From Phycisphaerales bacterium (lineage in GTDB: Bacteria > Planctomycetota > Phycisphaerae > UBA1845), in the NCBI GenBank assembly GCA_020852275.1, contig JADZBE010000038.1:1-64000 (forward strand): 64,000 nt of DNA. The letters are read 5' to 3'. Below the pieces are notes generated by a model that saw only the letters and a program-made list of their open reading frames with translations, was not told where the DNA came from and ran no database searches. The position numbers were made by a program, and so were the translations under genes. This document shows positions 24,932 to 59,908 of the stretch, in pieces. How positions within the stretch are numbered: position 1 is the first letter of the stretch; the number at the start of each line of letters is the position of its first letter.

Positions 24932-26002
24932 TCAGAGGAACCGGCCCTCGAAGTCCTTGCGGAGCTTGTCGACGAGTTCCTTGATGCCCTGCGCGTCGCG
25001 CTTGGTGCAGATGAGCGTGGCGTCCGGCGAGTGCACGATGACCAGATCATCCACGCCGATGGTGGCGATAAGGTGCTCGTCCTCCGAGACGAGGATGTTG
25101 CCGCGCGAGCCGAGCGTAATGGCGTGCTGGCACGCGGCGACGTTGCCCAGCGGGTCGCTGTCCATCAGCGACTCCAGCGCCGTCCACGCGCCGACGTCCA
25201 CCCAGTTGCAGTCCATCTCAACGACGAGGACGTCGTCGGCGCGCTCCATGATGGCGAAGTCCACCGAGATCTTCATCAGCGTCGGGTAGAGAAGGCGCAG
25301 CTTCTCCGCGCGCTGCGGCGTGTTCCAGCAGCGTCCCAGCTCGCGCAGCGCGTCATGCGAGTGCGGCAGGTGCTTCTTGAGCTGCGCGAGGATCGCGTCC
25401 GCGCGCCAGGCGAACATCCCGCTGTTCCAGTAGTACAGCCCGCTGGAGACGTACTTTGTGGCCACGGCAATGTTGGGCTTCTCCGCGAACTCGTGAACGC
25501 GGAAGACGCGCTCGCGCAGCCGCTCGCCGCGGGCGATGTAGCCGTACCCCGTGTGCGGACTGGTGGGGCGGATGCCGAAGGTGACCAGCGCCTCCGGGTG
25601 CTCGCCGATGCTCTCGAACGCGCTGCGCACCGCGTGCGCGAAGCGGTCGATCGGCGTGATGACGTGGTCGCCGGTGAACACGGCTATGGTGGCCTCCGGG
25701 TCTCGCTCGACGAGGACGGCCGCCCCCAGTCCGATGGCATTGACGGTGTCGCGCCCCATCGGCTCGCCGATGAGATTCTCGCGCGGCAGCTCGGGCAGCT
25801 CCTCGGCCGTCAGGTCAAGCAGCGCCTCGCTGGTAATGACGTGGATCGCCTCCGCGGGCAGAATGGCGGCGGCGCGCTCGTACGACTGGCGCAGCAGGCT
25901 CTTGCCGCCGAAGAGGCGCAGCCACTGCTTGGGTCTGTGCCGCCGGCTCAAGGGCCACAGCCGAGACCCCGCCCCGCCGGCCATGATGAGGGCGTAACGC
26001 AT
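24932..26002 (-). CDS. manC: mannose-1-phosphate guanylyltransferase
   Basis: This 356-residue protein has the sugar-nucleotide transferase core and only a short C-terminus, so it is the monofunctional form without the isomerase domain. The N-terminal nucleotide loop is MAGGAGSRLWPLSRRHRPKQ. Other motifs are GRDTVNAIGLGAAVLVERD, FTGDHVITPID, FGIRPTSPHTGYGYIARGE, FAEKPN, YYWNSGMFAW and WVDVGAWTALESL. It makes GDP-mannose from GTP and mannose 1-phosphate in the cytoplasm for surface glycans. It belongs with the envelope genes that lie upstream on the same strand (glycosyltransferase, 'sulfatases'). Confidence 0.9.
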   Translation of the reverse strand: MRYALIMAGGAGSRLWPLSRRHRPKQWLRLFGGKSLLRQSYERAAAILPAEAIHVITSEALLDLTAEELPELPRENLIGEPMGRDTVNAIGLGAAVLVERDPEATIAVFTGDHVITPIDRFAHAVRSAFESIGEHPEALVTFGIRPTSPHTGYGYIARGERLRERVFRVHEFAEKPNIAVATKYVSSGLYYWNSGMFAWRADAILAQLKKHLPHSHDALRELGRCWNTPQRAEKLRLLYPTLMKISVDFAIMERADDVLVVEMDCNWVDVGAWTALESLMDSDPLGNVAACQHAITLGSRGNILVSEDEHLIATIGVDDLVIVHSPDATLICTKRDAQGIKELVDKLRKDFEGRFL

Positions 26003-26395: not shown

Positions 26396-29300
26396 TCAGG
26401 GGTCCGTGCGCCGCAGGCCGCGGAGGAAGTCGAGGATGTTCTCTCGTTCTGCCAGCACAAACTTCGCCGGGCCCATGGCGCGGAGGTGATACGTCGCCTG
26501 CGGATGCACGATCTGCGCGAGGATCATGGCCGTGTCCCGTTCCGGCTCGTCGGCGTTGGACGGGCGGTAGTCGCCAACGACTTCCACCCAAAGCACGGGC
26601 AGGTCGTCGATGAGCAAATCCTCCTGCGAGAGGAGCACGGATGATTCGCCGCCCGAGGGGGTGAAGGCCTTCAACCATTTCTGGACGCTCTCGTCCCATG
26701 TGCCGCAAAGTCCTTCTGCCTGTCCCACGGTGATCTTGGCGATCGGGCGATCGTCGCGGTCGGCGGCGAGGACGTAGCCCAGGCGGAAGTTGGGGTTGGG
26801 TTCATCCGGGACGAATGCAGGCCACGGAGCGGGCGTCGTGAACGTGATGTACTCGAGCGCGGGAACCTGCGGCGGCATGCGGTTCGCCAGCGAGCCGGAA
26901 TCGTCAAGGCGTGCGCGCGGAGCCTCGTCCGGCGTTCGCTGCGAGGCCGCATCCTGCGCGCGCTCCGCCGGTTTCTGATCCTCCGGCATGAGCATGTCCT
27001 CGCCCGCATCGGTGCGCGCGCTGCCGATGAACGCGAGGATCATGGCTCGCTGGGCCATCATCTGCGGTCGCGGTCCGGTGGCTTTGACGAGGTACATTCC
27101 CTCCGGCAGCGCGATCACGGCGCCGAGCATCGCGTAGTCGGGCGATGGAGTCGCCCACGTGGGCGGCGCGTACGTGCCCGACGCTTCCGCCAGGATCACC
27201 GGGATGCCCGAGCGGCGTCGCACGGGCGTCGGCGCTTCGCGAATCACCTGCTCATCCAGCACCGTGAAGTCCTTCAGCCAGCGCGCAATCTGCGTGCCCG
27301 GGTCGCCCGATCGCCTCGCTACGTAGGTCACCACGAGCTTGGCGGAGGCGCGCGTCCGGTCCTGCGCGTCGAGGAAATAGCCCTGGCGAAAACCCTCGCC
27401 CGCGTTCTTGGGGGCATACACGTCCCAAGGCGGTTCGAACGCGAACGACACGAATCGGCTCACGCTTTCGCGGTCGCCGGAAGCGGAGGGGCTGATTGAA
27501 TCCCTTGTTGAGGCGCTTGTCGTATCGCCACTGGGATTTGCCTCCGTCGCAACGTCACCCGGCGGCGTCGGGTCGGAGGCCTCCTCGTCCGGCTCTTCGA
27601 CCGTAGATTCCCCATCGGGCGCGGGCGCCGACGCACGGGCCTGCGACCTGGCATCCGCGACCTGCGGCGCGGGCACGTCCGGCGCCGCGATCGGCTCGAT
27701 GCTCTCCGCGCCCATCAGGAAGGCGACGATGGCATCCTGCTCCTCGGCAATGATCTTGCGTTGGCCGAGTGTGACCACGAGTACCGTCGCGCCCGGGTGA
27801 CTTATTTCCGCCACGATCAGCGAGCACGTGCCGTCCGGGTCTTCGGGATCGTCCGAGCGGAACGTCCCCGTCAGCTCGACCATGCGCACCGGCATGGCGT
27901 GAATTCGAAGTTCGGTGCTCGTCGGGGTGAGCCGCTTGCCATCCTCCTCGTCCACGAAACCCGCCAGCCACGGCTCGAACGGGTCAGGATCGCCCGCGGA
28001 ACGAGCCGGGAGCTGGAAAACCCGGACGATGCCGGGGTCTTTGCCGCGCTGTGCATCGCCGAAGTGGAAAGCGGCTCGCAGCGCAGGCGGCGGCTGAGCG
28101 GGAACGAAGGGCTGCCAGTGCGGCGGCGATGTCAGCCGGACGTACTCCAAGTTCGGCAGTATCGCCGGTTTCTCCTCGGCGCCGGACTCGGCGGCATGGG
28201 ATTCGGCAGCTTCCGCGGTACGAGCGTCGCTGCCGGCGAGGCGGTCGCTCCTGCGATTCCTGGCCTCTGCCTCGCGTCGCGCCTGGCGCTCGGCGGTCTG
28301 CGCCGCTTGATCCTTCGCCTTGCCGGGCTTGGCGAGATCGGGCGCTTTCTGCCTGGCCGTCGGATCATTGCGCAGTTGCTCCGCGAGGTTTTGCACGCGG
28401 CTCATCTTCTGCTCGTCGGGATCCAGCGCCTTGCCCTTGTTTTCAAGGCGTTCGCGCATCTTGGCCGGGATGCCCTTCGTGCGCCCGCGATCGGCGAGGC
28501 GCTCCTCGATGCGCGCCTCCAGACCGGTCTTTCCCATGGCGTCGACGAACTGGTCCACGTCCTCGACCCAGGGACTGGCGGATTCGTCGCTGACCACTTC
28601 CCACGTGGCCGCGGTCTTCCAGGACTGAAGGGCAAGGAAGCCGACTACGGCGGCGGCCACGGCACCGCGCGGCAGCAATCCAGGCGCGCCCCGCCAGAGC
28701 ACCGCCAGCAACGTCGCGCCGAGCACCACGAGCATGAAGTAGGACGGCGCCAGAAAACGGCAGTCGATGGGGTCGTTGTTGCCGACCGTCCACAGCACGA
28801 GCATCATGGCCTCGTACAGGATGAAATAGGCGCCCGTCACGAGCATCACGGTTCGCGGCGGTCCGGGTCTCAGGAGCCATGTGCGGACGCTGTCGAGCGC
28901 CGCGCGGCGGCGGACCACGGCGACTCCCGCAAGAATCACCGCCAGCAAGCCCGCGACGGGCAACACCACGCCTTCGCGCTCAATCGGGTGAGTCCCCTTC
29001 AACTCGTTGAGCTGTCCGAAATCCTCCCAGGCGAGGAAGTCGAGGTAAAACGCCCGCGCCATGAATCGCACGTTGTTGTCGAACGTGATGAGCGTTTCGT
29101 CAGCGGGCTTGCGGTCGCGCCAGCGGTCCATGCCGGAGTAGTGCCCGGTGATTCTCTCCGTGCGGATCAACCAGCCGGCGATGGGTCCACCCGCGATGAT
29201 GCAGAAGAGCGCCGCGTGCATGAGTTTGCGCGACCAGGTGTCGTGTCGCGACAGGAGGATCACGACGCCAGCCAGCGGGAGGAGCGTGAAAACCGCCATG

Positions 29301-29911
29301 TACCGGCTCAGCGCCGCGAGGGAGCACACGACTGCCAGCGCGACCAGAAGAGGGACGCTTCGCCGATGCACATACGCCGACGCCAGCGCCACTCCACCGA
29401 TGCCGCAGACGGCGTAGATCACATCCGGGCGCGCTTCTCGGAACAGGTAGTAGATAGGTCCGAAGCAGAGGTAAGCCAGGATGAGCCATCGGCTGGTCCG
29501 AAGACCGAGGAGCCTTGCCAGTCCGTGCACGGCCAGCACGCCGGCCGCAAACGCGAGCGCATTGATGAGACTCGCGGCAGTCCACCATTCCAAACCCAGC
29601 AGCCGCAGGCCGGCCAGCAGGACCGGGTAAATCGGCGCGGATTTCCCGTAAGTCTCGCCGCGCGAGGTGACCAGCCCTTCGCCCTTGAGCAGACTCATCG
29701 CGGCCACGCGATGATCCGCGGTGCGCATGTTCTGGGCTGTGGGCCAATCCCGCAGCGTGCGGAATGCCGCGATGAACACAGCGACGCTCACCACCACGGC
29801 GAGCGCCCAGCCGACCATGCCACGCGAGATGACAAAGCCGGCGCGGGCAGGCTCCTGGTCAGGATGAGCGCTTCCGGTTCCGCGCCTTGAGTTGTCGTCA
29901 GCAGTGACCAT
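26396..29911 (-). CDS. GT39/PMT-like membrane glycosyltransferase with three repeated C-terminal domains
   Basis: This 1171-residue protein has an N-terminal part (about 1-450) with about ten TM helices. A luminal start, ADHRVAAMSLLKGEGLV...GKSAPIYPVLL, and REARPDVIYAVCGIGG are typical of the ArnT/PMT superfamily that uses polyprenyl-phosphate sugars. A charged coiled-coil/low-complexity linker follows (about 470-610). The C-terminal half consists of three divergent copies of one soluble domain of about 140 residues, each running from a 'PPxWxxFxP' start through 'W...F' and a 'G.Y' segment to 'ATGP...M...R..ILAFI'. This domain is unknown to me. It lies downstream of two 'sulfatase' genes on the same strand and is likely to modify surface polymers. 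Confidence 0.7.
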   Translation of the reverse strand: MVTADDNSRRGTGSAHPDQEPARAGFVISRGMVGWALAVVVSVAVFIAAFRTLRDWPTAQNMRTADHRVAAMSLLKGEGLVTSRGETYGKSAPIYPVLLAGLRLLGLEWWTAASLINALAFAAGVLAVHGLARLLGLRTSRWLILAYLCFGPIYYLFREARPDVIYAVCGIGGVALASAYVHRRSVPLLVALAVVCSLAALSRYMAVFTLLPLAGVVILLSRHDTWSRKLMHAALFCIIAGGPIAGWLIRTERITGHYSGMDRWRDRKPADETLITFDNNVRFMARAFYLDFLAWEDFGQLNELKGTHPIEREGVVLPVAGLLAVILAGVAVVRRRAALDSVRTWLLRPGPPRTVMLVTGAYFILYEAMMLVLWTVGNNDPIDCRFLAPSYFMLVVLGATLLAVLWRGAPGLLPRGAVAAAVVGFLALQSWKTAATWEVVSDESASPWVEDVDQFVDAMGKTGLEARIEERLADRGRTKGIPAKMRERLENKGKALDPDEQKMSRVQNLAEQLRNDPTARQKAPDLAKPGKAKDQAAQTAERQARREAEARNRRSDRLAGSDARTAEAAESHAAESGAEEKPAILPNLEYVRLTSPPHWQPFVPAQPPPALRAAFHFGDAQRGKDPGIVRVFQLPARSAGDPDPFEPWLAGFVDEEDGKRLTPTSTELRIHAMPVRMVELTGTFRSDDPEDPDGTCSLIVAEISHPGATVLVVTLGQRKIIAEEQDAIVAFLMGAESIEPIAAPDVPAPQVADARSQARASAPAPDGESTVEEPDEEASDPTPPGDVATEANPSGDTTSASTRDSISPSASGDRESVSRFVSFAFEPPWDVYAPKNAGEGFRQGYFLDAQDRTRASAKLVVTYVARRSGDPGTQIARWLKDFTVLDEQVIREAPTPVRRRSGIPVILAEASGTYAPPTWATPSPDYAMLGAVIALPEGMYLVKATGPRPQMMAQRAMILAFIGSARTDAGEDMLMPEDQKPAERAQDAASQRTPDEAPRARLDDSGSLANRMPPQVPALEYITFTTPAPWPAFVPDEPNPNFRLGYVLAADRDDRPIAKITVGQAEGLCGTWDESVQKWLKAFTPSGGESSVLLSQEDLLIDDLPVLWVEVVGDYRPSNADEPERDTAMILAQIVHPQATYHLRAMGPAKFVLAERENILDFLRGLRRTDP

Positions 29912-29984
29912 CACGATCCGCCTTCATGGGTCATTCATCCGTCCGTCGGCTCTGCCGTCCCCCGATTCCGGGCGACTGGCCTGC

Positions 29985-31382
29985 TTACGGTTTCTCCTCA
30001 TCCTCCTCGCCCTCGGTTTCGATGTAACCCAGCTCCTTGAGCTGATCGACGCGCTGCCGGCGCGCCGGTTCCGCGCGCGCGGGTTTGAAGCGCCGCGCGT
30101 TCTCAGACTGCGCCGCGACGATTGCATCGAGCTGCTTCCGCATGCGTTCCGCTTCCTCCTTGTGCAGCGACGCCACGTCCGTCAGCTCGAAGGGGTCCGC
30201 GGCCAGGTCGAACAGCAGCTCGCCCTTGCCCGGCCGACGGACGAGCCGCCAGCGCTCGCTCGTGAGCGTTCGAATCGTCGAGCCGCTGTTTCCCGGTGTC
30301 TGACTGTAAATGACCCCTGCGGCATCCGGCGGCAGGCTTGAGGCCTGCGCGGAGAACTTCGCCTTCGGCAGCCGGTCGCACGTGGCCAGCAGTTTGGGCA
30401 GGATGTCCACCGTCGAAATCGGCGCCGGCTCGCGCCGCGCGCTGACGCCGGGGATGCGCATCACCAGCGGCACGTGCAACTGCTCCCGCCAGTATCCGCC
30501 GTGGTTAGGCCAGTCGTGCTGCCCCAGTCCTTCCCCGTGATCCGACATGACCACCACGACCGTGCGATCCCAGACGCCGGTCTCCTTGAGGGCGGCCACG
30601 ACGCGGGCGAACTGCTCGTCCACGTAGCGAACCTCGCCGTCGTAGCGGTTGATGGCTTCCTCGCTGTTCCATGCCTTGGCGCCCTTGACGTCGCCTTCCG
30701 CGTGCTGCTTCTCGGCCTTGTCCGCAAACTTCCGCTCCTTCATGTAAGCGCGGAGCGCGTCGTCGCTCTTGAACATGCCGTCGAACGGCGCCGGCGGGCG
30801 ATACGGGGTGTGCGGATCAAAGTAGTGGACCCAGGCGAAAAACGGCGCGTCTTTCGCCTTGGCGAGCCAGGGCAGGAAGCTCGCGTTGGTCTCGTCGGCA
30901 GGGCGCTGGCTGGCGTCCGGCTCGTCCCAGACCTCGAAACCGGCCGACAGCCCCGTCTCGCGCTTGACGGGCGCGGCGCTGACGAACGCGGCCGTGTGGT
31001 AGCCCGCAGATCGCGCGGCTTCCGCGTAGGTCTCGACGTCGTCGGAGAGGACGAGCAGGTTGCGCTCGTGGGTGATGTTGTCGATCAGCCCATGCTCGAT
31101 GGGGTACAGCCCGGTCAGCAGCGAGGCGTGGGACGGCGTGGTGCGCGCCAGCGGGCTGATGCAGCGCTCGAAGAGAATGCCGTCCTTCGCAAGGGCATCG
31201 ATCGCCGGCGTCGTGGCGCGGAAGTAGCCGTAAGCGCCGACGTGATCGGCGCGAAGCGTGTCGATGGACACGAGCAGGAGGTTCAGCGGAGGTTTTTCGG
31301 TCGGCGCGGTTTGCGCCGTGCAGACGGCGGGCAGGAGCGCCAGGAACATGCAGAGACCAAAGGCTCGTCGGCGCAGGGTCAC
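29985..31382 (-). CDS. alkaline-phosphatase-superfamily 'sulfatase' with Thr at the nucleophile position (second of a pair)
   Basis: The GTG at 31382 gives 465 residues starting with a clear signal peptide (MTLRRRAFGLCMFLALLPAV). The frame is open to 31658, but that part mostly translates the 27-bp repeat array. Domain signatures are NLLLVSIDTLRADHVGAYGY (metal Asp pair), LARTTPSHASLLTGLYPIEHG, WVHYFDPHTPYRPP, VVVVMSDHGEGLGQH and a C-terminal KELGYIETEGEEDEEK. The usual C/S-x-P-S-R of formylglycine sulfatases reads T-x-P-S-H. That resembles Thr-nucleophile phospho-transferases and phosphodiesterases of the superfamily, so sulfatase activity is doubtful. Exported; substrate unknown. Confidence 0.75.
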   Translation of the reverse strand: MTLRRRAFGLCMFLALLPAVCTAQTAPTEKPPLNLLLVSIDTLRADHVGAYGYFRATTPAIDALAKDGILFERCISPLARTTPSHASLLTGLYPIEHGLIDNITHERNLLVLSDDVETYAEAARSAGYHTAAFVSAAPVKRETGLSAGFEVWDEPDASQRPADETNASFLPWLAKAKDAPFFAWVHYFDPHTPYRPPAPFDGMFKSDDALRAYMKERKFADKAEKQHAEGDVKGAKAWNSEEAINRYDGEVRYVDEQFARVVAALKETGVWDRTVVVVMSDHGEGLGQHDWPNHGGYWREQLHVPLVMRIPGVSARREPAPISTVDILPKLLATCDRLPKAKFSAQASSLPPDAAGVIYSQTPGNSGSTIRTLTSERWRLVRRPGKGELLFDLAADPFELTDVASLHKEEAERMRKQLDAIVAAQSENARRFKPARAEPARRQRVDQLKELGYIETEGEEDEEKP

Positions 31383-31387
31383 GAACG

Positions 31388-31495
31388 CACCGGTTGCAAA
31401 CCGGTGCCACACCTCACCGGTTGCAAACCGGTGCCACACCTCACCGGCTGGAAACCGGGGCCACGCTTCGCTGATTGGAAGCCGGAGCCGCACCC
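31388..31495. repeat. 27-bp palindromic tandem repeat, about four copies
   Basis: Units at 31388, 31415 and 31442, and a decayed one at 31469, contain ACCGGTTGCAAACCGGT (7-bp stem, 3-nt loop) followed by GCCACACCTC. The first two are identical. The array fills the 121-bp gap between the two 'sulfatase' genes and ends 6 bp before the GTG start of the downstream one, so it would form the leader of its transcript. Confidence 0.85.
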
Positions 31496-31503
31496 CGGTC
31501 CCG

Positions 31504-33156
31504 TCATGGCGATCCGCCGGATGGCTTCTTTCGCTTCGAATCACGTTCCGCCTCTTCTTCATCTTCCGATTCGATGTAACCCAGCCCGTGTAATTCTTCG
31601 CGCCGTTTGGCATCGTTAGCCCCGTCCGACGCCTCCCGTGCCGTGGGACGGCCCGCAAGATATCGTTTCGCCGCGGTTATCTGACTCTCGACCAGCTCCG
31701 CGAGGCGATGCTTGAGCTGAGCCGTCTGCTCTGGTTTTTCCTTGGCCACGTTGTTCAGCTCGAACGGATCCGTCGGCAGGTGAAACAACCGCGCGGTCTT
31801 GTCCTCGATGACGAGCTTCCACTCGCCCGAAACGAGCGTGCGGGCGTCGCGCCGGCCTTGCGGCTCCTGGCCGAACAGATCGACCGGCTCCGTGCGGCTT
31901 AGCGCGTTAGACCCGCGGCACTGCTTGAGGAAAGGCTCCGCCGGAAGACCCGGCATCAGCGCCAGCACGGTCGGCAGCATATCGATGGAACGCATCGCCG
32001 CCGTCACGCGCTGCGCGGATCGGCCCGGAACGTGGATGATCAGCGGGACGTGAAGCTGCTCATCCCAGATCGCGTCGTGCATCACAATGCCGTGCTGCCC
32101 CAGACCCTCGCCATGATCCCCAGTCAGCACGATCAGCGTCCGTTCGTGCAGCCCCGCCTCGCGCAGCCGCGCCAGCAGCGCCTTGACCTGCTCATCCGTG
32201 TAGCGAATCTCGCCGTCGTATCCGTTGACGGCCTTGCGCGTGTCCCATGCCTCTTCGTCGGGCACGACTCGCTTATCGCTGCGCTGCTTCGCAACGCGCG
32301 GGGCCACCTGTCGCTGCGACAGGTGCGCTTCGAGCTTCTCGTCCGTGGTGAACTGGCGATCGTAGGGCGCGGGCGCGTCGTACGGCGCATGCGGATCGAA
32401 GTAATGGATCCACGCGAAGAACGGCTCCGGAGGTTTTTCGCGCAGCCATTCGAGAGCGGCCTCGGTCGTCTCCGCGCCGAGCCGGCGCGCGTGGTCCGGC
32501 TCGCTGAAGTGATCGAAGCCCGAGGCCATGCCCGACTCGCGCTTCAGCGGCGTGGCGCTGACGAAGCCGGCCGTGCGGTAGCCCTGCTCGCGCAGGAACT
32601 CGGCGAGCGTGCGAAGCTGCGGCGTGGAGCTGTAGTTCTGCCCGCCGGGTTTTTCGAGGTTGGAAAGGACGCCGTGCTCGAGCGGATAAACGCCGGTCAT
32701 CAGCGAAAGGTGGCTGGGCAACGTTTGCGCCATCGGCACGAGGCAGCGCGCAAACAAGATCGAATCGCGCGAAAGCGCGTCGATCGTCGGCGACGTGTCG
32801 CGGAAGTAGCCGTAGCAGCCGAGGTGGTCCGCGCGCAGGGTGTCGATCGTGATGACCAGCAGGTTCAGTCGCGCCGAGGCCGCGTCGGGTTTCGGGTCGC
32901 CGGAGGTCGGTTCCTTGGCGTTCGAGGGCGGCTGATCGGGATTCGCCGCGGCGCGATGGGCTTCGCAGACAGGCGGGTGGATGTTTTCGGAGACAGGCGG
33001 GTGGATGCTTGATGAAGGCTGTCGCGAGGCGAATTCCGGCTGGCCGATCGGCGCGGAGGCTTCCTGACGCGAACCGGCTCCGGTAAGGCCCCACGCGGTG
33101 AAGCAAAGCAGCAACGCGCACCCGGCGCGCAGTTCCGTTGTCCAACTCACGAACAC
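31504..33156 (-). CDS. alkaline-phosphatase-superfamily 'sulfatase' with Thr at the nucleophile position (first of a pair)
   Basis: This 550-residue protein has a GTG start (33156) preceded by GGAAGGA. A signal peptide (AGCALLLCFTAWGLTGAG) is followed by a Pro/Ser/His-rich linker of about 65 residues. The catalytic domain has NLLVITIDTLRADHLGCYGY, MAQTLPSHLSLMTGVYPLEHG, WIHYFDPHAPYDAP and LIVLTGDHGEGLGQHGIV, and ends HGLGYIESEDEEEAERD. It is paralogous to the downstream gene. As there, the formylglycine position is Thr (T-x-P-S-H), which argues against classic sulfatase chemistry. It probably acts outside the cytoplasmic membrane on a polymer made by the neighbouring genes (inference). Confidence 0.75.
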   Translation of the reverse strand: MFVSWTTELRAGCALLLCFTAWGLTGAGSRQEASAPIGQPEFASRQPSSSIHPPVSENIHPPVCEAHRAAANPDQPPSNAKEPTSGDPKPDAASARLNLLVITIDTLRADHLGCYGYFRDTSPTIDALSRDSILFARCLVPMAQTLPSHLSLMTGVYPLEHGVLSNLEKPGGQNYSSTPQLRTLAEFLREQGYRTAGFVSATPLKRESGMASGFDHFSEPDHARRLGAETTEAALEWLREKPPEPFFAWIHYFDPHAPYDAPAPYDRQFTTDEKLEAHLSQRQVAPRVAKQRSDKRVVPDEEAWDTRKAVNGYDGEIRYTDEQVKALLARLREAGLHERTLIVLTGDHGEGLGQHGIVMHDAIWDEQLHVPLIIHVPGRSAQRVTAAMRSIDMLPTVLALMPGLPAEPFLKQCRGSNALSRTEPVDLFGQEPQGRRDARTLVSGEWKLVIEDKTARLFHLPTDPFELNNVAKEKPEQTAQLKHRLAELVESQITAAKRYLAGRPTAREASDGANDAKRREELHGLGYIESEDEEEAERDSKRKKPSGGSP

Positions 33157-33612
33157 TTCGTCCTTCCTTGGCCGGCGCGCGATGCAAAAGGGGGTTGTCG
33201 TCGTTTATTCTAGGGCACGAACAAACCTGAGGTCAACCCCGCGTCATGACGGCTTGCAGCATCGCATCATCGGGGCACCAGCGGTCTTTGCGTGCCTGAC
33301 GGGGATCAAGCCGGGGCGCCCTGCGAATCGAGCCGGGGCGCTTTGCCAATCGAGTCGGCTCCCACGCGAATGAAGTCGGTCGTCCGCACGGACCAAGCTG
33401 GATCGTCGTTCAGGAGAATTCGAGTCGCGCGAAGGAGAGTCCGCCGGACGACCAGGTTCAAGACTGGAATGCCACCCTTCGTAACCGAACTCTTCGGCTC
33501 GAATTCTGCGCGGCGAATGTGGCAAGGCCCGCCGCGTGCGTGGTATGCTGCCGGGCATGGAAGTCCACTTGGCGGAAAGCATCGCGTCGCATCCGCGCGC
33601 CCGGCACATCCC
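33157..33612. other. 456-bp divergent intergenic region
   Basis: This region separates the minus-strand 'sulfatase' pair from the plus-strand ligase-like gene and should hold promoters for both. Bases 33307-33356 contain two copies of a short direct repeat (CGAATCGAGCCGGGGCGC type). The long frame that runs through it from 33292 has no homology-like features and is treated as non-coding. No clear promoter consensus was found. Confidence 0.4.
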
Positions 33613-36120
33613 GTGAACCTCATCCTCCGTCGCATTCCGCTTCTGATCCTGCTCGTCGTGGTGGGTCTGCGTCCGCTGATCGGGGAGACGTACGACGCCG
33701 CGCAGGACGTCATTTCATCCGGCGTTTCGCAGCTCGCGCCGGCGATGCCGATGCGGACGCTGGCGATTGACGTGGCGATCCTCGCGGCCGCGGTCGGGGT
33801 GATCGCGCGGCGGGCGTGGACGCGGTCGTATCGGCGGACGGGGCTGGAGTGGGGATTCGCGCTGCTGGTCGTCGCGGCGGGCGTGTCATGCGCGTGGGCG
33901 CAGCAGAAACGCCTGGCCGTCAATGCCTCGATCGACTGGCTGTGCCTGCCGGTGCTGGCGATGGCGCTGGTTCAGGAGGTGACCACGCACCGGCATCGGC
34001 GCGTGCTGCTGGGCGTGATCGTCGCCTCGGCGGCGGCGAACGCGGTGGAGTGCCTCGACGAGGCGTGGTTGTCGTTGCCGGAAACCCGGCGGTTTTACGA
34101 GGAGAACCGCACGCAGTTCTGGCGCGAGCGCGGCGTGCCGCTCGACTCGGCCATGGTGCGCATGTACGAGGCCCGCCTGCGCGCCGGAGAGCCGGACGGG
34201 TTCTTCTATCACGGCAACGTCGCGGGCGGATACCTGGCGATGGTTGCATTGGCGCTGGCGGGGGCTGTCGCCGCGGGGCGGTCGAGGATCCTTGGCGCAG
34301 GCGCAGTCGCGCTGCTCGCGCTGGCGATGTTCCTGACTGGCAGCACGGGGGCGCTCGCCGCCTTTGCGCTGGCCGGGGGCGCATGGGTCGGCGCGTCGGT
34401 GCTTCGGCGATGGCCCCAATGGCGCGAGCTGATCGCGCGACGGCGGCGTGCGGTGTTTCTCGGCGCGTGGTCATGCGTGGCCTTCAGCGCGGCAGCGGTC
34501 GTCGGACACGGGCTGTACCACAAGTCGCTGCCGGGCGCGTCGCTGAACTTCCGCTGGCAATACTGGACGGCGTCGGTGGAGATGATTCGCGACCACCTCT
34601 GGACGGGCGTGGGGCGCGAGAACTTTGGGCGGCACTACGTGCGGTACAAGTCGATCGAAAGCCCGGAGGAAGTGGCCAGCCCGCACAACTTGCTCGTGCA
34701 GGCGGCGGCGGATTTCGGCGTAGTCGGTCTGGCGGGCCTGATGGCGCTGCTGATCGGCGGAAGTGCATGGCTGGCGGGAGTCGCGGGTCCGGGCGGTGGA
34801 CGCGCCGACGACGGCGGACGCGCCGGCTGCGGCGGCTGCGCGAGCGGGACCGCGGCGACGCGCGATCCCCCGCCGGTTGAAGCGCTGAAGAATTCGCCTT
34901 CGCGCCGGACCGTTCTCATTCAATCGCTCCTGCTGGCGCTGGTCATCTTCGGCATCCGTCTGCCGCTGCTCGGCGCGGACAGCGGAGCGTTCATGCTCGT
35001 GCAGTCCTACGTCGCCCTGCCGGTCTGGATCGCTGCGTTTCTGCTGATTGCGCTGCCCGGAGCTTCGGCGGAAAAGATCCCGACAACGCGACGAAACACC
35101 GGCGAGTGCGCGGCGATGGAGCCTCGCCCGGCGGCAGCGCTCTTCATGTTCGCCGGCGCCTGCGCCGGGCTGGCCGCTTTTGTGATTCAGGATGCCGTCA
35201 ACTTCGCGCTCTTCGTGCCCGCGTCGGCGACGACGGCGCTGGCTTTGTACGCATTCGCCGCTTCGTCGCGGCACGCGCGGACGGCTCCTGCGGCGCCGAG
35301 TTCACCCGCCGGCGGGCAGGCTCGACCCGCGCACACAACGCCTCTCACGCGCGGGACTTTCTTACTTTTGACGCCGGCGATCCTGATCCTCCTCGGCTGC
35401 ACGGCGTGGCAGACATGGGTCGTGGCCCGGTCGAACCGCGCGCTCGCCGAAGCACGAGAGCTGGCCAGGCGCTGCGTGCCAGGGGCCGAGGTCGTTCAGG
35501 ACGCGCCAAGGCGGAACGGCGTGGAGGATGCGGTGCGGCACGTTCTGGAGAGATTCAGCGATGCGGCGCGGATGGATGCGTGGGATCCAACGCCGTGCCT
35601 GGAGCAGGGCGAGTGGCTGGCAGCGCTGTGCACCCGCGGCGCTCTGCCCGCTTCGCCGCAGGGGTTCGATCAAGTCCGCGCGGCACTGGATCAGGCCAGG
35701 CGGCGCGACCCTGCCCGCGCGGAGATTTCGCGGCGCATCGCCCGCACCGAGCTGGCGGCGGCCTCTCGGCTGGCCGCTGAATCCACGAAGCCGCGGACCC
35801 AACAGGCGGAGCACCTGATCCGCGCTGTGGAAGCTGCCCAGCGTGTGGTTCAACTCTACCCTTCGGACCCCTCTGCGTGGCGACTCCTGGGCGAGTGCCA
35901 GATGCAGGCCGGCGACGCTTCGAGTGACCCCGAAGCATGGAAAGCAGCGGAGGCGAGCCTGAGCCGCTCGCTCGACCTCGATGCCGCCCGCCCCGCGTGG
36001 GAGGTGATCCGCCGCTTCAGCGACGCAGAACGCGGGGCGATTGAACGGCTGCGGGAAGCGGTTCAGGGGGAGCTCTCCGGCGTACCGAAGCCCAGCCCCG
36101 GCGGACCCGATGGCGGCTGA
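33613..36120 (+). CDS. O-antigen ligase-like (Wzy_C) membrane protein with C-terminal helical-repeat region
   Basis: The GTG at 33613 starts directly at MNLILRRIPLLILLVVVGLR. Length is 835 residues. There are about ten to twelve TM helices. The Wzy_C/WaaL-type core has a large loop with FYHGNVAGGYLAMVALALAG, LNFRWQYWTASVEMIRDHLW and TGVGRENFGRHY, then SPHNLLVQAAADFGVVGLAG. The last 220 residues (after about 610) are soluble and Ala/Arg-rich with TPR-like helices (QAEHLIRAVEAAQRVVQLYP, AWKAAEASLSRSLDLD). Members of this family join O-antigen or other glycans to a carrier, or glycosylate proteins. No waa/wzx genes are adjacent. Confidence 0.7.
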   Translation: MNLILRRIPLLILLVVVGLRPLIGETYDAAQDVISSGVSQLAPAMPMRTLAIDVAILAAAVGVIARRAWTRSYRRTGLEWGFALLVVAAGVSCAWAQQKRLAVNASIDWLCLPVLAMALVQEVTTHRHRRVLLGVIVASAAANAVECLDEAWLSLPETRRFYEENRTQFWRERGVPLDSAMVRMYEARLRAGEPDGFFYHGNVAGGYLAMVALALAGAVAAGRSRILGAGAVALLALAMFLTGSTGALAAFALAGGAWVGASVLRRWPQWRELIARRRRAVFLGAWSCVAFSAAAVVGHGLYHKSLPGASLNFRWQYWTASVEMIRDHLWTGVGRENFGRHYVRYKSIESPEEVASPHNLLVQAAADFGVVGLAGLMALLIGGSAWLAGVAGPGGGRADDGGRAGCGGCASGTAATRDPPPVEALKNSPSRRTVLIQSLLLALVIFGIRLPLLGADSGAFMLVQSYVALPVWIAAFLLIALPGASAEKIPTTRRNTGECAAMEPRPAAALFMFAGACAGLAAFVIQDAVNFALFVPASATTALALYAFAASSRHARTAPAAPSSPAGGQARPAHTTPLTRGTFLLLTPAILILLGCTAWQTWVVARSNRALAEARELARRCVPGAEVVQDAPRRNGVEDAVRHVLERFSDAARMDAWDPTPCLEQGEWLAALCTRGALPASPQGFDQVRAALDQARRRDPARAEISRRIARTELAAASRLAAESTKPRTQQAEHLIRAVEAAQRVVQLYPSDPSAWRLLGECQMQAGDASSDPEAWKAAEASLSRSLDLDAARPAWEVIRRFSDAERGAIERLREAVQGELSGVPKPSPGGPDGG

Positions 36121-57313: not shown

Positions 57314-57577
57314 ATTCCCTTATTGACGAAAAGACTTTGATCCGATAAATACCACAGAACGTTTCAAGTCAAAAAGACTCTGAACGCCTCAAATCGGGAA
57401 GGTTTGCGCTGACTCCGGAAGTTTCGGAAGACGCGACCGGCTGGACCAGCCGGGCTGAACGTGCGGCGCCGGCGTCGGCCGGAGCGGGTTGGTGACCCGG
57501 CCTCACGTGTTGCGGCGGGCATGCCGTGCCTCTCGGGCTCCCCCTTGAATGTTGGACGCGGGAACCGGGAAGCACAG

Positions 57578-59908
57578 ATGCACAACAACACATCTTCGGA
57601 TCGGGTCACAATTCACCACTCTCTTCGCGCGCATGTTCTTGGCGCCGCGCTCATCGGGCTGGCATTCTTCATCGGTGGACTCAGGCCCGACGGCAACTGC
57701 CACGTCAACAACGACAACAATTCCTGCGACCCGGGCGACGATGTTTGCCAGGATGTCGGTCCGGTCGTGACCATTGATCCGCTGACGGGCGCGTTCCTGC
57801 TTGACGGCCGGCCATTTCTTCCCGTGGGCTTCTGGGGATTTTACAGTTCGCCGCCGTGCGGCGTGAACCTCGACTGCGAATTTCCACCTTGCGTGAACGA
57901 TAATGGGAACTGGTCCTGCGAGTGGGAAGCGTATTGCGGCGAAGTCTATGACTGGAGCGTCTACTCCTCTTTCAACGCCTTTGTAAAGGGTCCGGACAAT
58001 TCCTTTGACGAAGGACGTGAACGCTACGGGATCATTCAGTTTCTCCAGACGAGCCGCAGTTGTCAGTACGTGGGGGATTGGTGTGACGAGCCGGGCATTG
58101 CCGCCTGGGAGGTCGTCCACGAGCCTAATTTGCCTGTTAGAGACTGCGACGGCGAGCACTTCCATGAGCTTGCGGAGGCTATTGCAGGGCGCGACCCGTG
58201 CGGTCGACCCGTGTTCACGACGCCCTCGGGAGGCGGAATCAGCGACGGCGAAGCCAACGACCTTGGTGATTATGCGCCGTACATTGACTTTGCCGCATTG
58301 CAGGCAGGATATACGGTTCCCCATTTTCGTGCCGCGCGATGCGGAACGACAACCCAGCGGGGCTATGACATCCTCAACCCGCCCGGTCAGCTCCGCACGA
58401 AACCGGCGCTCTCGATCATCCGGATCAGCGGCTACCAGCCGTGTCGCTTCCTGCATACTTATCGGGAGCCCACGTATGCCGAGCTGCGCGTGCAAGCTTT
58501 TGACGCGCTGATCCATGGCGCGCGCGCGATCATGTTTTACCCGTTCGACGCAGGAATCAGCGGAGATCCGTGGGGCCGCGGACCGGCGACCTATAATGTG
58601 GAGGATTCCCCGCCTCACCTCGCGAATCTCCAGGCTATTGGGGCGGAGCTGATCGCCATGCAGGACATTTTCGCGTCCCCTCTTGCCGGCGACATCACCA
58701 TCCATGCCGATGCGCATTGCCGCGACCGAGAGGAACCCTGCATGGATTGTCAGGCGTGGGAGGTTTCCGCCCCGGAAGGCTCCACGACCCAGATTATCTG
58801 CGCCAATGTGGCGGAACAGCCAAGCGCCTATTTCAGCTATAAGATCGGGGGAAACAGCCGTCCCTTGCCGGTTGCCCAGTCCCGACTGAAAGTTGATCCC
58901 GACGACGCCAACGAAACGCCGATGCTCGTGCCCGCTTCGTTGCCGCAGGATCCCGAGTGGGACTGCGACGATGACAACGACCCCGTCGGCTGCAAGACGA
59001 TCACCGACTCGACGGTGATGGTGCAGGACATTTACACCGGCGAGGAGGCGGGTCGGCGGCAACTTCAGTATTTCCTGACGCAGTTCAGCTTCCGGGTTGC
59101 GCAGCTTGTCGATCCCTGCGGCGATGGCAACAAGGACCGTAAAGTGTCCGTGACATTGTATGTGGACGACCTGCGCGACGACTCGCCGCATTCTCCGGTG
59201 AGAACATGGAAAGTGCGCGTCCCTGAGCCGGGGCAGTACGAGTTGGCGATCGATCCGCCCCAACTCATCGAACCGACGCGCCGCTACTTCATGATCGTTC
59301 GCTCCGTGTGCGGATCTGTAAGCCTGTTTTCGTACTTTGGCAACGTCGGCGCACAGGCGATCGACCGCGTGCATCCGCCGCGCAACGGCGTGTATCCGCC
59401 GCTCATCCAGGGCCGGTCGCTGGAAGACGTGTCGATTGCGATCACTCCGCAGACTTCGTTGCCGATATCCGGGTACTGCGAATACCGGGATGCGAATGAT
59501 TCCGGCACATTTCATGCGCTTGACGGCGCGGCGCCTGCCATAGAAGCTGATTTTGCCGCCTACGCGGTGCATCGCTACCAGCTCTATCGTGGAACGTTTG
59601 ATGACTGCAATGCCGACGGCGTTCCTGATGACTGTGGAGACGCCTGCTTGGATTTCAGCGAGTTGAGCATCCGCTGTCTGGATTCTCAGACGGTGGAGGT
59701 GACCGTGACACTTGCCGATTCCGCGCGATCAGGCGAGTGCGTGACCGTGAATGTAAATGGCATCGAGCACTCGGCGGTCATTGAAGGGAACCTGGCGATG
59801 ATCGTCACGGACAGCAGCGCCGGTCCGATTGATGAGGCCCGGCTGACATGTCCCGAGAATTGCGGGCTGGCCGTTCAGCAGAAAAGCTGCAGCGAGCCGG
59901 CGCCCTGA
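57578..59908 (+). CDS. secreted glycoside-hydrolase-like protein with planctomycete-type C-terminal domain
   Basis: With the ATG at 57578 the protein has 776 residues; the frame is open from 57461. The hydrophobic stretch VLGAALIGLAFFIGGLR is a signal peptide or anchor. A (beta/alpha)8-like part (about 55-380) has GAFLLDGRPFLPVGFWG, CDEPGIAAWEVVHEPNLPV (possible acid-base Glu) and RVQAFDALIHGARAIMFYPF, as in GH5/GH-A-type enzymes. A beta-rich region and a DCNADGVPDDC calcium motif follow, then the Cys-bounded last domain (CLDFSELSIRC ... LTCPENCG) that the carboxypeptidase at 44632 also carries. Many Cys suggest disulfides. The substrate is unknown. Confidence 0.65.
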   Translation: MHNNTSSDRVTIHHSLRAHVLGAALIGLAFFIGGLRPDGNCHVNNDNNSCDPGDDVCQDVGPVVTIDPLTGAFLLDGRPFLPVGFWGFYSSPPCGVNLDCEFPPCVNDNGNWSCEWEAYCGEVYDWSVYSSFNAFVKGPDNSFDEGRERYGIIQFLQTSRSCQYVGDWCDEPGIAAWEVVHEPNLPVRDCDGEHFHELAEAIAGRDPCGRPVFTTPSGGGISDGEANDLGDYAPYIDFAALQAGYTVPHFRAARCGTTTQRGYDILNPPGQLRTKPALSIIRISGYQPCRFLHTYREPTYAELRVQAFDALIHGARAIMFYPFDAGISGDPWGRGPATYNVEDSPPHLANLQAIGAELIAMQDIFASPLAGDITIHADAHCRDREEPCMDCQAWEVSAPEGSTTQIICANVAEQPSAYFSYKIGGNSRPLPVAQSRLKVDPDDANETPMLVPASLPQDPEWDCDDDNDPVGCKTITDSTVMVQDIYTGEEAGRRQLQYFLTQFSFRVAQLVDPCGDGNKDRKVSVTLYVDDLRDDSPHSPVRTWKVRVPEPGQYELAIDPPQLIEPTRRYFMIVRSVCGSVSLFSYFGNVGAQAIDRVHPPRNGVYPPLIQGRSLEDVSIAITPQTSLPISGYCEYRDANDSGTFHALDGAAPAIEADFAAYAVHRYQLYRGTFDDCNADGVPDDCGDACLDFSELSIRCLDSQTVEVTVTLADSARSGECVTVNVNGIEHSAVIEGNLAMIVTDSSAGPIDEARLTCPENCGLAVQQKSCSEPAP

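Follow-up and report, generated by a model that had tools for sequence, protein, structure and literature searches.

A planctomycete PMT_2-like membrane glycosyltransferase with three tandem copies of a domain of predicted Mog1/PsbP-like fold and a possible role of its tail in docking

Eukaryotic PMTs combine a membrane glycosyltransferase with an extracytoplasmic soluble domain, the MIR domain, which is a beta-trefoil and lies within a loop between membrane helices. A different fold is found in the Mog1p/PsbP-like proteins (PsbP, CyanoP, LpqN, Apa, MTC28, Eag/SciW, DcrB and Mog1), many of which are soluble and situated at a membrane surface. LpqN is described as acting with MmpL3/MmpL11 (PMC7458404), Eag chaperones stabilise the transmembrane domains of effectors (PMC12881460), a PsbP/MOG1-like protein of the T6SS is proposed as an adaptor (PMC3482391), and Ran and Nav1.5 are given as interaction partners of MOG1 (PMC4763225). 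The planctomycete gene analysed here connects such a domain with a membrane enzyme. Our best reading is a PMT_2-like GT-C enzyme that has recruited and multiplied a Mog1/PsbP-type domain, with about an even chance that this domain docks it to partners in the cell envelope.

The window is a stretch of 64,000 nucleotides from a Phycisphaerales genome of 5.05 Mb in 43 contigs. The gene and its parts are as follows.

26396..29914, minus strand: whole gene, GTG at 29914, likelier start ATG at 29911, stop at 26396, 1171 aa
28505..29911, minus strand: membrane part, PMT_2/GT-C-like, residues 1-469, assigned from hydropathy, sub-threshold PMT_2 similarity and conserved residues
28163..28504, minus strand: probable tether, residues 470-583, 114 residues, charged, assigned from the sequence
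27689..28162, minus strand: domain copy 1, predicted Mog1/PsbP-like, residues 584-741, 158 aa, assigned from AlphaFold2 and fold matches
27011..27475, minus strand: domain copy 2, residues 813-967, 155 aa, grouped by tree with the single domain of two orthologues
26399..26863, minus strand: domain copy 3, predicted Mog1/PsbP-like, residues 1017-1171, 155 aa, assigned from AlphaFold2 and fold matches

The GTG is the first start codon of the frame and the ATG the codon right after it, the latter being the likelier true start; the extent 26396-29911 given in a first-pass annotation of this DNA was correct. A GC3 of 0.82 against a GC2 of 0.50 supports coding, as do orthologues from two congeneric genomes that are about 52% identical across the membrane part. 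Searches with the whole protein returned nothing useful from PDB sequences and no match to phage families.

By hydropathy, residues 1-469 contain about 11 transmembrane helices, and in an 11-helix layout with the N-terminus inside, the positive-inside rule fits most loops (the helix bounds were set by hand). GT-C enzymes are multi-pass membrane proteins with an odd number of helices, their first loop and C-terminus being extracytoplasmic. On account of this layout and of a lipobox-like motif that is frequent in free relatives of the tail domain, we infer a cytoplasmic N-terminus and a periplasmic C-terminal tail. The protein had been taken for a membrane glycosyltransferase in the first pass, and it is indeed PMT_2-like, although neither it nor either of its two orthologues reaches the curated cut-off of PMT_2 (PF13231) at 26.1 bits: the window protein scores 11.1 bits (E 0.46; 21.4 bits in the genome search), the orthologues 20.6 and 21.0 bits (E 4-5e-4). 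In the source genome, 21 matches to PMT_2 reach E <= 0.001, and this gene is among the weakest of them. A profile made from the three orthologous membrane parts found nothing useful among PDB sequences and matched in 10 of 298 genomes of the class, three of which belong to this genus. All ten aligned membrane-part sequences share the arginines R203 and R385 as well as an acidic position 163, whereas D66, identical in all three orthologues, is out of register with the Asp of the eight distant homologues; in GT-C enzymes an acidic catalytic residue is expected in the first extracytoplasmic loop. The best reading of this part is that of a PMT_2-like GT-C glycosyltransferase, a putative enzyme whose catalytic competence we call no more than putative because of the sub-cut-off score and the misaligned D66. 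What it shares with PMT_2/ArnT-like GT-C enzymes is the weak profile similarity and, with eight planctomycete homologues, R203-Y and R385; what sets it apart, besides its low score, is the long C-terminal multidomain tail. The tail domain was detected in none of the eight distant glycosyltransferase homologues.

Residues 470-583 probably form a flexible tether between the membrane part and this tail, in which three tandem homologous copies of one domain occupy the C-terminal 588 residues, with linkers of 71 and 49 residues between them. In BLASTP, the copies are 27-29% identical to one another (E 8e-10 for copies 1 and 2, 2e-22 for 1 and 3, 4e-19 for 2 and 3), and their Smith-Waterman scores lie 15-31 SD over shuffles, with no shuffle out of 1000 equalling any pair. 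The three divergent C-terminal repeats described in the first-pass annotation are thus real, if somewhat longer (158, 155 and 155 aa) than the approximately 140 residues assumed. Of the motifs suggested for their starts and ends a loose form was recovered, not exact patterns across the three copies, which begin with PPHWQPF, PPWDVY and APWPAF and end with LGQRKIIAEEQDAIVAF, ATGPRPQMMAQRAMILAF and AMGPAKFVLAERENILDF, respectively. Each copy retains the W, W and G that are invariant in a 23-row family alignment.

AlphaFold2 modelled copy 1 with a mean pLDDT of 92.9 and a pTM of 0.88 and copy 3 with 87.7 and 0.84; the same homologues were fed to both predictions, which are not fully independent. 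In Foldseek (best E 4.9e-6 for copy 1 and 8.5e-6 for copy 3) PsbP topped both searches, followed at lower rank by CyanoP, Eag, LpqN, MTC28, Apa and DcrB. VIA-align gave best Z scores of 12.2 for copy 1 and 11.9 for copy 3, and its rows at Z 9-12 were mostly Mog1/PsbP-fold proteins, LpqN (Z 11.2 and 11.5), EagT6 (Z 11.5 and 11.3) and Mog1 itself (Z 9.7-10.8) included. A Mog1p/PsbP-like fold predicted over the whole domain is well supported for copies 1 and 3, with about 115-143 aligned residues; the structure prediction and fold search, which had been recommended at the outset, gave the same fold for these two copies, and different folds for the parts were not seen. By sequence, copy 2 belongs to the same family as copies 1 and 3. 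The domain is therefore Mog1p/PsbP-like in its predicted fold and at the same time a sequence family of its own: identity to the described members does not exceed 16% in the Foldseek rows, no Pfam sequence match was found, and the domain is here arranged as a tandem array on a multi-pass enzyme. Three other candidates were set aside. A TiME soluble domain at Z 5.5 is below the trusted level and was not used, an exosortase-associated EpsI-like domain was dropped in view of no Pfam match, and for an MIR-like or carbohydrate-binding domain there was no Pfam match and the predicted fold does not fit. The analogy to MIR domains that had been drawn for the tail fails on the fold, which is predicted as alpha/beta, and on the placement, as the three copies form a C-terminal tail.

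The proposal of docking follows from what Mog1/PsbP-fold proteins such as PsbP, LpqN and Eag do: they attach to membrane assemblies or to hydrophobic segments. The PMT_2-like enzyme would bear a flexibly tethered periplasmic tail of three beads, and these would be non-catalytic docking modules that keep the enzyme beside envelope partners, the number of copies serving either to raise avidity or to bind several partners. The same structural neighbours may, alternatively, point to domains that hold a polyprenyl-linked donor, a nascent glycolipid or a lipidated partner. LpqN and EagT6 are found at Z values of about 11-11.5 and START lipid-transfer domains at about 5-7, and a TMM lipid mimic was used in the analysis of LpqN (PMC7458404). 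The parallels would be LpqN with trehalose monomycolate, which is a proposed pair, and Eag with transmembrane helices, which is a known one. The fold by itself shows no function, however, and PsbP is to our knowledge not a lipid binder; we consider this handling of lipids or hydrophobic segments rather improbable. Binding of a glycan or protein acceptor by the three domains, which would feed it to the active site, is to be weighed as well. The topology would place the tail on the same membrane side as the presumed active site, and binding modules are often raised in repeat number. A sugar-binding, MIR-like role is conceivable, but nothing found here supports it. The top fold matches for copies 1 and 3 feature no prominent carbohydrate-binding module, and the free relatives have no glycan-gene context in 17 loci judged by eye. 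We therefore assign acceptor binding a low probability and regard it as more likely that the tail holds partner proteins rather than sugars. Docking is accordingly preferred to these readings, and to the fusion of a mere passenger considered below, with confidence that is about evenly balanced.

The domain is widespread. A four-row profile found it in 39 of 60 relatives, and when a 28-row profile was run on a sample of 392 genomes of the phylum, 217 contained it; the survey covered Planctomycetota plus plasmids, with no match on the latter, and all 17 named domain loci belong to Planctomycetota or Phycisphaerae/Phycisphaerales. None of 28 members scanned matched PsbP, DcrB, Lpp-LpqN or another such Pfam family at E <= 1, the best E in the Pfam scan being 0.08 with hits scattered among unrelated families. 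NCBIfam gave no family match for these 28 either; an NAD(P)H dehydrogenase subunit (E 0.0023) was hit by one member only and taken as chance. The domain profile retrieved nothing useful from PDB sequences, and a literature search on planctomycete Mog1/PsbP proteins found no paper on this domain family, which seems to be uncatalogued. The domain that the first-pass annotation did not recognise is in fact without a curated family, but it is no longer an unknown one: it has become a testable family, present in over half of the sampled planctomycete genomes, for which Pfam and NCBIfam hold no model.

Its members are mostly single-copy lipoproteins or secreted proteins. Of 82 distinct domain ORFs, 40 have a lipobox-like motif by a loose definition, and more than one copy is present in four of the 82, namely three copies in the window protein and two in each of three others. 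Five long ORFs were scanned for further partners, and the domain was found as a C-terminal add-on of an SGL lactonase (two proteins) and of a PD40 propeller (one protein). The lactonase fusions are those at L105:2493-4325 and L108:3979-5586, where an SMP-30/gluconolactonase domain has the family domain at its C-terminus. The source genome itself encodes a single-domain paralogue on contig C26 (sequence E 4e-13), which has the same domain as the glycosyltransferase and falls into the same clade (see below), but which, like other planctomycete single-domain lipoproteins, carries a lipobox and a linker instead of a glycosyltransferase and has one copy. By eye, the neighbourhoods of free relatives at the 17 named loci share no polysaccharide theme, which we count against the docking reading. 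Two different single-domain family lipoproteins are encoded side by side at L074:1157-2648, L075:3047-4597 and L076:5605-7235, in the latter two cases downstream of a succinyl-CoA-ligase-like gene (named by eye). At L079, L081, L083 and L084 the single-domain gene is divergent from a J-domain gene, after which come a small membrane protein and an SDR-like gene (all by eye).

Among the 82 distinct domain ORFs, at least five transmembrane peaks before the domain are present only in three glycosyltransferases of this genus. The fusion itself is well supported, and within the genomes searched it was seen in this genus alone. We know of no other bacterial membrane glycosyltransferase with such an architecture, and a literature search for a glycosyltransferase with a PsbP-type tail found nothing relevant. 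The two orthologues have one domain, in comparison to three in the window protein. In an 87-domain tree the glycosyltransferase-borne copies lie within a clade of 10 rows (support 100/99), whose other members are single-copy proteins from this genus plus one from the same family. Within it, copy 2 joins the lone domain of the orthologues (98/82), and copy 1 pairs with copy 3 (100/93); a 21-row tree has the same two groupings at 84/81 and 87/89. The 21-row tree is also compatible with a joint clade of all three window copies (p-AU 0.124), so that copies may have been lost in the orthologues or gained in the window protein. We assume that the glycosyltransferase acquired its tail by capturing a free domain of the lipoprotein type and that the copy number then shifted between one and three.

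A comparison of the two orthologues gives a dN/dS of 0.36 for the domain, 0.48 for the linker and 0.13 for the membrane part, values that rest on few changes and give a weak sign of selective constraint on the domain. The looser constraint on the domain than on the membrane part was counted against docking. It would be in agreement with a domain that was joined by chance, as a spacer or as a near-neutral decoration, and so would the variable copy number and the identity of just 27-29% between the copies; the retention of the invariant W, W and G in all three copies and the confident folds predicted for copies 1 and 3, however, speak against such a passenger, which we consider very unlikely.

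For the favoured docking role, the first candidates for partners would be two sulfatase-like enzymes encoded upstream. A related gene pair is present elsewhere in the genome.

29985..31658, minus strand: sulfatase-like (alkaline-phosphatase superfamily) gene, PF00884 E 1.6e-47, motif TTPSH
31504..33156, minus strand: second sulfatase-like gene, PF00884 E 3.1e-48, motif TLPSH
L137:3851-7149: second sulfatase-like plus PMT_2-like pair, 4-bp overlap, no tail domains

The nearer gene sits 70 bp upstream of the glycosyltransferase, and its true start is probably at 31349 or 31562. In true sulfatases the formylglycine derives from a Cys or Ser in a C/S-x-P-x-R motif; neither neighbour has either residue at this site, where both carry Thr. 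Their Thr-x-Pro-Ser-His motif resembles that of nucleotide pyrophosphatase/phosphodiesterase-type enzymes, and Pfam Phosphodiest likewise matches both (E 5e-19 and 8e-14). Because of the Thr, phosphodiester or phosphotransfer chemistry appears likelier for both neighbours. The order sulfatase-sulfatase-glycosyltransferase is the same in both orthologous loci. A fourth congener (94% complete) has no glycosyltransferase, and the closest sulfatase-like match there, at 48% identity, is no nearer than a different paralogue that all four congeners possess. Because this genome lacks the glycosyltransferase as well as any closer sulfatase-like match, the three-gene cassette seems to be gained and lost as one unit in the four genomes. 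A search of the source genome with one of the two sulfatase-like proteins gave 12 matches; on contig C42 a sulfatase-like gene (43% identical) overlaps a tail-less PMT_2-matching gene by 4 bp, and the pairing of sulfatase-like and PMT_2 genes therefore recurs. ManC (24932-26002) and Wzy (33292-36120) were rejected as functional clues, as neither is near the orthologues, and this absence was counted against docking as well. In a wider model, which we rate as less likely than not, the large planctomycete Mog1/PsbP-fold family would be a general periplasmic docking module, and its capture and tripling by a GT-C enzyme would build a scaffolded envelope-glycan complex with the two Thr-type alkaline-phosphatase-superfamily enzymes.

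The fold is already known; new are a family that is uncatalogued by sequence and an unusual architecture that is confined to one genus and adds to those of bacterial membrane glycosyltransferases. The natural series of zero, one and three copies allows the effect of an accessory domain on a GT-C enzyme to be tested. The reach of these findings is moderate, given a known fold and a fusion in one genus.

Two further features of the window were noted. An ORF of 815 residues at 57461-59908 gave no Pfam match at E <= 0.01; its vicinity contains genes of the glycosyltransferase 4 type and others resembling asparagine synthetase, the latter named by eye. At 31389-31459, in the space that separates the coding regions of the two sulfatase-like proteins, a 17-bp palindrome-like element is present as three near-copies in tandem with a spacing of 27 bp; none of 100 shuffles gave as many matches, and the array looks like an intergenic repeat element.
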